This document shows, one piece after another, positions 3,224 to 18,845 of a DNA stretch of 64,000 bases. The notes below the pieces were generated by a model. The model saw nothing but the letters and a program-made list of their open reading frames with translations. It was not told the DNA's origin and did no database searches. The DNA is taken from positions 401,001 to 465,000 of the forward strand of contig NW_026251403.1 in assembly GCF_025118155.1 (NCBI RefSeq), given 5' to 3'. Source of the DNA: Cokeromyces recurvatus. Lineage: Eukaryota > Mucoromycota > Mucoromycetes > Mucorales > Mucoraceae. Within the stretch, counting starts at the first letter, position 1, and each line of letters starts with the position of its first letter. Both the position numbers and the translations under genes were made by a program.

Positions 3224-3677
3224 GTTTCACAGACCTGGAATTTAACTATCAACTTCTTGTAAATTGACTCCTCTGCATTAGCAATGGCTTCCTTTCTGGC
3301 TTCTTTAACACGCAAATTCCTCCAATACTGAGACACATCAAGGCGGTCTAAAATCTATGATATCGTAGAAGATAAATACAAATTTGTAAAAAGCAAGCAA
3401 ATACGTGTGACTACTGTACCTCAAAGTGATTTGCTGTTATAGTATTTACCCATGCACGCAATTGAGCACGTTTAAATCTACCTGTGCACTTCTTGAAAAT
3501 ACTTTCAGTGACATCTTTTTGTCCGAACATAAAAACTTTATAAAAGCTTATTAAGTCAAATGATCCATAACAGTTTTCAATATAGGTTAAACAAGAGGGT
3601 AAAGCAGCACTGTCCATACTAAATTTGTTTTGAGAGCAGAAGAAAAAGCGTTTTTTTTTTATTATTATCCAACACAC
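986..3677 (-). pseudogene. Broken multi-exon gene of unrecognised, probably Mucorales-specific, protein family
   Basis: On the minus strand, coding-looking blocks occur in order: 3677-3411 (contains CLTYIENCYGSFD and FKRAQLRAWVNTI), 3360-3235 (LDRLDVSQYWRNLRVKEARK), 3071-2856, about 2735-2625 (QQFDLWVGNSPNF), 2380-2256 (VLWNTYVDPLLDPLFSNP), then 1560-1325 (SERPDSVISVIMQPSWG) and 1291-986 (YTMLELTHIQIPRSVESLER). The last three blocks read as one continuous protein if about 690 bp of AT-rich DNA between 2256 and 1565 is removed, so the gene appears interrupted by an insertion. One junction near 2745-2860 cannot be joined without a stop. The style resembles, from memory, a multicopy hypothetical family of Mucorales. 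No function can be assigned. It could instead be a functional gene with unusual introns. Confidence 0.5.
2778..2813. repeat. 18-bp perfect tandem duplication
   Basis: The 18-mer TTGACCTGATATACATTG occurs twice head to tail inside the degraded gene, in a stretch where the reading frame cannot be followed. It looks like a replication-slippage duplication. Confidence 0.85.
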
Positions 3678-15657: not shown

Positions 15658-15706
15658 TAAAGGAAAAATGTTGAAGTATATGCATAAATGTTTTTTTTCT
15701 ATAATA

Positions 15707-15824
15707 CAGTTTTTACACTTTAAATTTGGACGAAGTTAGTTTTTTTTTTTTCTGGATGAATTAAAATTAGTTTCTAGATATTTAGTTTACCTTTTTTGGA
15801 CAAATTCAAAAAGGAAATTTAGAC
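15707..15824 (+). repeat. Left terminal inverted repeat
   Basis: About 118 bp that match the reverse complement of 18369-18486 with roughly ten mismatches. The repeat contains four spaced copies of a TGGAC/TGGAT/TAGAC-like word (15727, 15753, 15797, 15820), possible protein-binding sites. Confidence 0.88.
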
Positions 15825-16270
15825 AAAAGGTATAGTGTCCCAGTCGACAGCAGCACAAAAGCTGCATTCGTAAAAGTTAACAATAGTAAAATGAGAAAAT
15901 AATCTGTTGTTTGATGTTTAATAACGCTATTTTTTTTTATGATTCAACGAACATTGCCAGTGTTTGTGCACTTTTATTGAAGACGAACAACTTAACTACA
16001 ATTTCATATATCCTCTGGCCGCCCTGGTGAACCCTTTGTCAAAGCCCTTCTCCACATAAATCAGCGTCATTCTGATATAGCTAGTTATCATCCATCTAAA
16101 CGGTCACTCTCCTTATGCAGAGGCGTCGTGCTGTACATATAGAATGTCAGATACTATTTCATTCTAAAGATTGCATTCAATACAATGATAAATGACGCGT
16201 ACAAAGATATCTTAAGAAACAAAATAATCGATAGTTCAAGATACATCCGGACAAATAGTCATTAGAGCAA

Positions 16271-18298
16271 TTGCTTTCTACAAATTATTTTATTTTAGAA
16301 AATATAGAATCAATACCGGACTGTATCTTCAAGCAAAATTACTGGTATTCTGTTTGCCAGCTAGTAGGAGGGCGAAATGTAACAAGCAGTATTCTATTTC
16401 CCAACAACATGTTGGCGACTTGGGACACATTTCGTACTTTGTATTCAAGTGCAATTTATGCAGAAGGGCTTCCTAAAGGGCGCTAATCAACCATTGACAG
16501 CAGCTTGTGTAGAACTCGCCACTATTTATAGCAATAACATAGTAGAGAACTTTGAAAGTAGACTTTTAAGATATCTTAGATATCGTTTACAAAAATGCAT
16601 TTGTTGTAAGCCATTATTTGCGCTCGTATGTAACAAAATCTAACATCTTTGTGATCTATAGAATATACACTGGAAAGATGTAGCTTACAAAGCAGAAGAG
16701 TACTGCTATCAGTATGTTTGTAGCGGTAGTTCTGAATGGAGGGGGAGGAATTGTGGCTCGCTGACAGAAGACTTTAAGAAACAAAACAAAGATATATATA
16801 TGCCTACCACTTAAAGCGCTTTTGCCCAATGGAAGCTACTTTGGTCACTCTTTCAAAGCAAATTCAAAGCTTTGTTCCGCTATTATCATCCTACGAAGCT
16901 GAACACGCAGGTCACAAGCCTTACGATGTAAGGCGGCTTCCTTTTGCCACGACTGTTTGGTTTATTTCCCAATCCATCGATGCACTTTCGGTCTATAACC
17001 ATGAATATCAACGCTATATGTGCATTTCTTTCACTGTCGCTTACCAAGGAATTATAATGACCAACTCAAAATATTTCAACATGTTGTAAAATTCGATAAG
17101 CTACGGTTTTCAAAGTATGTCACTTCAACATTTGAATTATTTTGACATATGCTCTAATTTTCTATTCATAAACTAGTAATGATCTTGAACCAAATGGCAA
17201 TAACGATGTTCTCTTTAGTAATATCATTAGATCCGATGGCTTTGATCTAGATTGTCTTTTTTTTTTTTTTTTTTTTTTATAAAAGAAAGATGACTATAAA
17301 GAACCCAATTAACAGCCTCCAAATAAAGTTGTCAGACTTCAACTACCAAGAAGTTTAACAACAATGTCAGCTCGTTTTTTTTTATTGATCCAGGTAGAAA
17401 ATCCGTGTTTACTACTGCTGGTGTCTCAAGTATTCAGAAGCACGCTTTGACGCGCTGCACCACAAAAGAGTACTACCATTACACTGGGCCTACGAAATAT
17501 GCCGCCAAGCAGACAAAGCTGAAAAAAGAACAAGGGTTTTGACAAAATCGAAAGTGACATTCCCACCCCCCAAAAAAAAAATGTCAACCCTGAATTCTTA
17601 TAAAAAGCTACGCCCAATATTTGTTTAAACATCTGCGCATCTTAACCAACTTCTATGGTTCCAATAGTACAAAAGATAGCTTCTTCTTGTGTCTAGGGGA
17701 GACAGCGAGCTCCCGAGATAATGACCAACATGGTAATAAGCGATGGCAGCAAATACAACAAGGCAAAAAAGGGTAAAGAAGAAGAAGAAGAAGAATGGGG
17801 ATATCACTTTTTCTTGTTTGTAAATGTTTCTTATTATTTTTTTTAAGAAAAAAAAGATAAGACAAATGGAAGCCTATCAAGTATCAGCAAGACAATACCA
17901 AATTTCCTTTGATTGTATTCGGTAGTGGAATGTTTGGTAAGGATAACGTAAAGTTAAAAGGACTTGGATGCGGTGTCGTCGGCAAACTCTATACATCATC
18001 AAAGAAACGTGAGGCTGAAGGTCAGTTGATTGCTATTACAATTGACGAATTTAAAACCTCGAAAACACGCAACCTCTGTTTCTTTGATGATTTAAAAATT
18101 ATCAGTACGAAATCGTTTAAAGGTGTAGTCGTTGTATGTTGCAAACGATGCTCCAAAGTATGGCAAAGAGATTCTAACGCAGCCAACAACATGATGACGA
18201 TTTCAAAGTCAATTTGGTCAGGAGAAGAAAGACCAGATGACTTTACACCTAAGAAAAAAAAAATAATCGTCGTATCAAACACGGTTTTCCTTTTTTAG
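16271..18298 (+). pseudogene. Decayed Fanzor (eukaryotic TnpB-like RNA-guided nuclease)
   Basis: Homology is spread over several frames. N-terminal part: 16271-16486, then a frame change near 16470-16486 into 16449-16643 (NQPLTAACVELATIYSNNIV, ESRLLRYLRYRLQ). Next is 17217-17260 (SNIIRSDGFDLDC), then the RuvC-I block at about 17372-17540 with FIDPGRKSVFTTAG (Asp codon 17387) and RCTTKEYYHYTG. A one-base shift near 17533 gives FDKIESDIPTP, and another near 17590 gives KHLRILTNFYGS. The last block, 17900-18245, has VFGSGMFGKDNVKLKGLGCG, IDEFKTSKT (Glu codon 18047) and VWQRDSNAANNMM (Asp codon 18170). The zinc ribbon keeps C...CCKRC, but the Cys normally following TSKT is Arg (CGC at 18068-18070). 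The catalytic D/E/D are readable; the gene as a whole is not. Some shifts might be introns. Confidence 0.88.
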
Positions 18299-18368
18299 GA
18301 TTCAGATTGTTACAGGTAGACAAGTGTTATTTATTTCCAAATCATCTAAAAACTAATTTTTTTTTTTC

Positions 18369-18486
18369 GTCTGAATTTCCATTTTGAATTTGTCCAAAAA
18401 AGGCAAACTAAATATCTGGAAACTAATTTTGATTCGTCTAGAAAAAAAAAAAACTAACTTCGTCCTAATGTAAAGTGTAAAAACTG
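18369..18486 (-). repeat. Right terminal inverted repeat
   Basis: Inverted partner of 15707-15824. It lies about 70 bp after the Fanzor stop codon, the position from which omega-RNA guides are produced in active Fanzor and TnpB elements. Confidence 0.88.
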
Positions 18487-18488
18487 TG

Positions 18489-18845
18489 TTTGGTTTACAA
18501 ATTACTGGTAGGAAACAATTATGTTATAACATTTTACATTTTATTATTAACAAAACTGAAGTTATGATTTAACAGAAAACTTGACAAAAGTAGTAAAAAG
18601 TCTTTATTATTATTATTCAATATTTTTATAGTTAAATATAAAAGATATGAATTCAACTAATAAAAAATAATGTATTCTATTGTTACAGAGAAAAAAAAAA
18701 GATTATAGAAATCTTATTTTTTCCTTATTGGGCTTGTTTCCTTAATAATTCATGATCAGATAAATAATAAATTTACACTTGATAGGTCCTGAGATGATTA
18801 TTAATCTTAATTTTCTTTTTTTTCTTTTTTGAAAAAAAAAAAAAA
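18489..18845. other. Spacer between transposon and TAH18
   Basis: AT-rich DNA ending in T-runs and an A-run immediately before the TAH18 ATG. No gene is seen. Confidence 0.6.

Follow-up and report, generated by a model that had tools for sequence, protein, structure and literature searches.

The 64-kb window analysed here (C9:401001-465000), the whole stretch taken from the 28.05-Mb, 64-contig genome of the mucoralean fungus Cokeromyces recurvatus that was searched throughout, contains a decayed Fanzor1-type gene copy between mariner-type ends. Fanzors, eukaryotic relatives of TnpB and Cas12, are RNA-guided nucleases. The best explanation of the element as a whole is that it is a dead, non-autonomous Tc1/mariner-type transposon with a Fanzor1 gene as its cargo, a reading that we hold to be very probable. 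The pairing of Fanzor1 with mariner-type ends has been known since 2013 and is not new. The new part is the UUACAGGUA motif with its flanking stem-loops, which directly follows the Fanzor gene; judged from its sequence, this region is the best candidate for an omegaRNA scaffold. The features of the element are as follows, in window positions.

15705..15706, no strand: left target-site TA; TA stands at the same place at 33 of 44 family ends.
15707..15824, + strand: left terminal inverted repeat (TIR), 118 bp, starting CAGT (self-comparison, genome matches).
16283..17048, + strand: N-terminal and middle Fanzor remnants in several frames (tblastn with the exons of L010, a relative of the same family).
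17381..17698, + strand: RuvC part of the Fanzor, with the first catalytic motif DPGRK at 17387 (tblastn with L010 exons, motif reading).
17861..18298, + strand: C-terminal Fanzor open reading frame with DEFKTS (18044), a zinc finger retaining three of four cysteines, and WQRD (18161) (ORF, Pfam, motifs).
18269..18285, + strand: candidate hairpin H0, GUCGU...ACGGU, with two wobble pairs in the window copy (alignment, relatives' folds).
18288..18300, + strand: candidate hairpin H1, UCCU...AGGA, overlapping the ORF stop codon at 18296-18298 (alignment, cis/trans permutation).
18310..18318, + strand: conserved motif TTACAGGTA, the sole copy in the 64-kb window, with 0.5 expected by chance.
18369..18486, - strand: right TIR, 118 bp (self-comparison).
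18487..18488, no strand: right flank TG, taken for a decayed target-site TA (sequence).
18489..18508, + strand: position that the guide segment would occupy if the omegaRNA ran off the right end, by analogy with the Fanzor1 RNAs in the passages available from PMC10711439.

The original prediction, made from the DNA alone, had described inverted repeats of about 118 bp starting CAGT, and these were recovered exactly: the repeats at 15707-15824 and 18369-18486 are 92.4% identical, and slightly longer arms (15703-15828 and 18365-18490, 126 nt) are 91% complementary. The left TIR matches 41 places genome-wide, its own two counted; thus, the pair is not a chance resemblance, and the proposed search with this repeat did reveal a family with the same TIRs. 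Both ends had been placed beside TA, which is true of the left end, whereas the right flank reads TG. A single transition turns TA into either TG or CA, so the right flank is most simply a decayed TA.

Matches to the Fanzor C-terminus number at least 153 in this genome and family TIRs at least 73, the latter compiled with three TIR queries (the left TIR of the window and two more) and leaving out one fragment, C9:107687-107722. As the list of Fanzor places, 115 of the 153 rows were used, the omitted rows being mostly second pieces of one place. Within 5 kb of a listed place lie 47 of the 73 TIRs, whose orientation identifies them as left or right ends, and the other 26 have no listed place within that distance. 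For the flanks, 45 of the 73 TIRs aligned to base 1 or 2; with the remaining 28 left out and one duplicate removed, 44 ends were counted, flanked by TA (33), TG (6), CA (3), AG (1) and GA (1), as compared to a TA frequency of 10% in the window. Copies with identical flanks were seen on different contigs (C18/C27 and C43/C21) and, because the flanks are identical, represent duplicated segments or assembly haplotypes; the C18/C27 pair was entered once in the flank count. The marks of Tc1/mariner elements, namely TA target sites at 33 of 44 ends and TIRs starting with CAGT, are thus present together with a Fanzor1-type gene, and the predicted pairing of a Fanzor with mariner-type ends is borne out.

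Two members of the window's family, designated family A, are nearly the same element at different sites. L009 and L010 are identical at 3347 of 3357 aligned bases (99.7%), plus 75 gap columns, and their flanks differ, with TA on both sides of each. Therefore, they moved recently, without a transposase inside them. On the suggestion that intact relatives may be active, better-preserved and recently mobile relatives do exist; no fully open family-A Fanzor frame was found in the three copies whose whole gene was examined (the window copy, L009 and L010). The spliced L009 gene encodes 788 residues with a single stop; 55 bp that L009 has near an intron are missing from L010. The base before the TA was considered as a sign of a nuclease target motif. 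A hand count, excluding elements that lacked TA or whose ends were unclear, gave C at this position for 9 of 16 right ends and 1 of 14 left ends; the idea was dropped, as C was found in 0 of 3 new family-A right ends (L123-L125) and family C, described below, was mixed.

In the window copy, the predicted TnpB-like RuvC motifs were located at 17387 (DPGRK) and 18044 (DEFKTS); together with WQRD they share one frame, with stops in between. The matches to the N-terminus, middle and RuvC part are scattered over several short plus-strand frames. By motif reading, the glutamate of DEF is present, and the first cysteine of the zinc finger has become R. The copy thus retains the D, E, RD and three of the four cysteines of the Fanzor/TnpB pattern in a broken frame. 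This pattern, D-X(125-275)-[TS][TS]-X-X-C4 zinc finger-X(5-50)-RD in the passages seen of PMC3627910, is found in the spliced L009 protein as D496, TS714 (217 residues between), C718, C721, C740 and C743, and RD at 749. The marks of Fanzor1, given in the available part of PMC10711439 as TDG in the WED domain and DPG in RuvC, are represented in L009 by TDG at 450 and VDPGRK, and in the window by SDG at 17232 and DPGRK at 17387; the window's SDG stands where L009 has TDG, so that the first position varies between T and S.

Comparison with known proteins, which the original prediction had proposed as a check, placed the family nearer to solved Fanzor1 than to Fanzor2 or TnpB. A profile of 10 homologues came closest to SpuFz1 of Spizellomyces punctatus (PDB 8gkh; E 2.2e-9), with TranC next at 0.02, and the L010 RuvC exon by itself matched SpuFz1 8gkh (E 4e-5). 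The C-terminal ORF of the window scored 25.8 bits against PF07282, just below the curated cut-off of 26.3, and the better-preserved L010 scored 40.9. The C-terminal exon alone was ambiguous (7zph, E 0.0016; TranC, 0.0029; the TnpB-like L79, 0.008; SpuFz1, 0.49). A protein search with family A returned 16 matches, the best named ones, from Mucor, Rhizopus, Parasitella and Gilbertella, being 43-54% identical. These closest named relatives are hypothetical proteins of Mucor flavus, M. plumbeus, Rhizopus delemar, Parasitella and Gilbertella; most carry PF07282, and the source does not name them Fanzor. The AlphaFold model of the Mucor flavus homologue (mean pLDDT 49.8) was too poor for use. SpuFz1 is thus the best solved relative by RuvC exon and profile, yet a distant one, and family A may differ from it by two zinc-knuckle-like motifs at the N-terminus. 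These CCHC motifs lie at residues 31-47 and 93-109 of L009, are also seen in the N-terminal ORFs of L112, a family-C copy, and occur in several Mucor homologues.

In the passages seen of their paper, Bao and Jurka (2013; PMC3627910) described Fanzor1 genes in Tc/mariner elements, some of them transposase-less with TA flanks. The PUl-4-like Fanzor1-only elements there share with ours the Fanzor1 gene, mariner-type TIRs, TA duplications and the lack of an internal transposase. The Tc/mariner Fanzor1 elements named in those passages are not mucoralean, and the Mucorales ones are MuDr-type or unclassified; the paper also lists further Mucorales families. No paper title on mariner-type Fanzors of Mucorales appeared in the literature searched, in which subscription papers were thinly covered, making this weak evidence of absence.

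A second lineage, Fz-B (L018, L026 and L070; 92-97% identical in DNA), has related ends together with a truncated Tc1/mariner transposase. Its protein matches PpFz1 of Parasitella parasitica (PDB 9cf0) over 422 residues (E 7e-105), a nuclease with the target motif ATN in the portion seen of Xu et al. (2024; PMC11423790). The family-A Fanzor gave no match to PpFz1 in the sequence searches made and represents a distant lineage. The TIRs of Fz-B were seen in L018 and L026 and in part in L070, and over 101 bp that of L018 shows 83% identity to the TIR of the window element. L026 carries the C-terminus of a DDE_3 transposase (111 residues, E 1.2e-9) on the strand opposite to the Fanzor, ending about 110 bp from the TIR. 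Five genome places are at least 77% identical to this remnant, and at all five it lies beside an Fz-B gene. The statement that no transposase is visible in this fungus therefore did not hold. The genome contains at least 184 Tc1/mariner-type DDE_3 matches, including six near-identical open copies, and the related Fz-B lineage, of the same TIR family, carries a truncated one.

However, no complete transposase was found between these TIRs in the window copy and the family-A and family-C copies read, and the Fz-B remnant is truncated. Because no DDE transposase lies within the same TIRs, the window element is at most a non-autonomous Tc1/mariner member. No complete autonomous partner was found among the elements read: L070, L132 and L133 belong to Fz-B, the TIRs of L072 and L073 are different ones, and in L071 no TIR pair was seen. 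Of the complete Tc1 elements read, L073 comes nearest to the DDE_3 remnant (57% identity), but with another TIR. CAGT termini also occur in the intact Tc1 elements of the genome. The six near-identical open Tc1/mariner elements, L059-L064, have the TIR CAGTGCGTCCGCCGTCAATTGG with arms 98.6% identical, and were likely active recently.

A third group, family C, has different CAGT...TA ends. It comprises L112 and ten more right ends, with pairwise identities of 92.6-97.9%, and its TIR has 33 matches in the genome. The right ends terminate in CAGTCTGGG. By eye, TA follows 8 of the 11, L117 and L119 are followed by CA, and L116 has lost its end; two further right ends, L126 and L127, are followed by TA as well. 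The left end of L112, the only family-C left end read, is flanked by GA rather than TA. Eight of these eleven right ends have ACATTTCGTCT, or a similar form, after CGTCCAGAAAAA. This stretch, by eye, resembles part of the family-A TIRs at both ends, and it is absent from the L112 left end.

Families A and C, whose TIRs differ, nevertheless have the TTACAGGTA motif in common. In the right ends it comes after the Fanzor gene and lies on the coding strand. At 30 C-terminal loci, a few of which overlap or are duplicates, it was present exactly in 23 and within one mismatch in 29. On the opposite strand of the same stretches the corresponding counts were 0/30 and 2/30, and in two stretches further upstream there were no exact copies (0/30 each) and 2/30 and 0/30 with one mismatch. 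Among the compiled ends, the exact motif keeps to the Fanzor-gene side, occurring in 14 of 22 right ends and 0 of 20 left ends; with one mismatch allowed, the counts are 19 of 22 (sense) and 3 of 20 (either strand). The motif is absent on the right-end side of the Fz-B copies L018, L026 and L070. The longer pattern TTHAGATNNTTACAGGTA, with at most one mismatch, gave 74 genome matches as compared to 4 for the reversed control, and 28 of the 36 exact and 17 of the 38 one-mismatch matches lie within 900 bp downstream of a listed Fanzor place.

At four places (L013:3945, L134:199, L135:201 and L136:198) the right-end stretch is kept, and no Fanzor match of the list lies within 900 bp. These stretches start at nearly one point, just before TTMAGAT..TTACAGGTA. 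Directly upstream lies an antisense LINE in L013 and L134, and L136 has LINE pieces on either side at a greater distance. The four may have arisen because LINEs prefer one site for insertion, or they may be LINE-made copies of an RNA whose 5' end is fixed.

Three candidate hairpins surround the motif: H0 and H1 lie upstream, and H2 encloses it. The arms of H1 vary between subfamilies and pair within each, and in an exact cis/trans permutation with eight representatives, 10 of 40,320 arrangements were as good. When the stems were tested with anchored arms, p was 0.016 for H1, 0.023 for H2 and 0.25 for H0, the last not significant, with control partitions at 0.92 and 0.67. A stem test with arbitrary halves gave 0.57 (H1) and 0.10 (H2) over 17 representatives. 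With anchored arms, the eight divergent representatives of the permutation above gave 0.00025 (H1) and 0.044 (H2), figures that are optimistic because the arms and the set were picked after seeing the sequences. Single folds had a mean z of -1.16, negative in 12 of 17 representatives, as compared to -0.13 and 8 of 20 for left ends; five of the 17 were no more stable than shuffles, and hairpins on the motif strand appeared in several. RNAalifold found only three pairs (-0.16 kcal/mol) on a MAFFT alignment of 19 sequences and none on 22 right ends, and Rfam returned no match at gathering score for L112, L010, L028 and L048.

A different account of these observations is that the Fanzor is a passive passenger whose nuclease plays no part in transposition, the elements having spread as Tc1/mariner deletion derivatives with a 3' region that binds transposase or regulates the gene. 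The long TIRs with repeated GGACGA-type motifs, read by eye, would suit it, being like transposase-binding ends, as would the broken state of all family-A copies with the whole gene examined (window, L009, L010), the truncated transposase at all five Fz-B places and the missing motif in Fz-B. We regard it as possible but unlikely, given that the exact motif keeps to the Fanzor-gene side (14/22 right versus 0/20 left ends), that the H1 stem changes in sequence while its pairing is kept, and that the motif crosses families A and C despite their unlike TIRs.

More doubtful is the reading of TTACAGGTA as a splice site of a 3'-UTR intron, whether an acceptor (TTACAG) or a donor (AG/GTA), rather than an RNA loop. 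TTACAG/G does look like an acceptor site of fungi, with ACAGGTAAG standing in several copies. However, the bases after GTA differ by subfamily (AAG, AGC, TGC, TCA, GAC), so that no donor consensus is kept, and the covariation of the H1 stem and the motif-strand hairpins in several single-sequence folds also speak against it. That the element belongs to another superfamily and merely mimics mariner ends is highly improbable: it carries no complete transposase and some Mucorales Fanzor1 elements are MuDr-assigned or unclassified in the passages seen of PMC3627910, but against this stand the TA flanks at 33 of 44 ends, the CAGT termini in two unlike families, the Tc1-type DDE_3 remnant within the same TIR family, and the TA-only flanks of L009 and L010, which show no longer duplication.

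Our preferred reading thus remains a Tc1/mariner-type element with a Fanzor1 cargo. The TIRs with their TA flanks, the transposase remnant and the near-identical pair suggest mobilisation in trans: mobile relatives probably move by cut-and-paste at TA sites through a Tc1/mariner transposase from elsewhere, which would bind the long CAGT-starting ends. For guidance, the Fanzor would rely on a transcript that runs through the 3' side of the Fanzor gene and the right end, with the three-hairpin region and its UUACAGGUA loop plus the right TIR as the proposed scaffold, and flanking host DNA as the guide. By analogy with TnpB and other Fanzors, an empty site on sister or homologous DNA would be cut, and copying the element back would be favoured.

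The proposed scaffold has a precedent in layout. In the passages available, Yoon et al. (2023; PMC10711439) predicted the TIR and target duplication to lie within three-stem Fanzor1 reRNA scaffolds. The SfAV Fanzor1 reRNA likewise has three stems at the right end, and its scaffold includes the TIR and the duplication; by the same passages, it belongs to another host and another transposon type, and that RNA was sequenced whereas the Cokeromyces RNA is predicted only.

Taken jointly, the observations allow a more speculative and rather improbable proposal. The UUACAGGUA three-hairpin region may be the omegaRNA core of a mucoralean Fanzor1 clade, and one part of the RNA (UCGUCCAGAAAAA...CUAACAU.CGUCU), confined to the right end in family C, may have come to lie in both terminal repeats of family A, serving there as guide-RNA scaffold and transposase-bound end at once. 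LINEs may make or carry Fanzor-less copies with a fixed start before the motif, which would act as stand-alone guide-RNA loci.

A single 28-Mb genome thus holds three Fanzor groups with mariner-type ends, a transposase fossil in one of them, a recently moved pair, and a candidate guide-RNA core that two of the groups retain despite changing ends. How a Fanzor RNA adapts to new transposon ends is hence directly testable in one species by small-RNA sequencing, and bears on the wider question of why so many kinds of transposon carry Fanzors. Finally, at C23:337070-337214, two family-C TIR matches face each other within 145 bp, possibly a tiny non-coding derivative.
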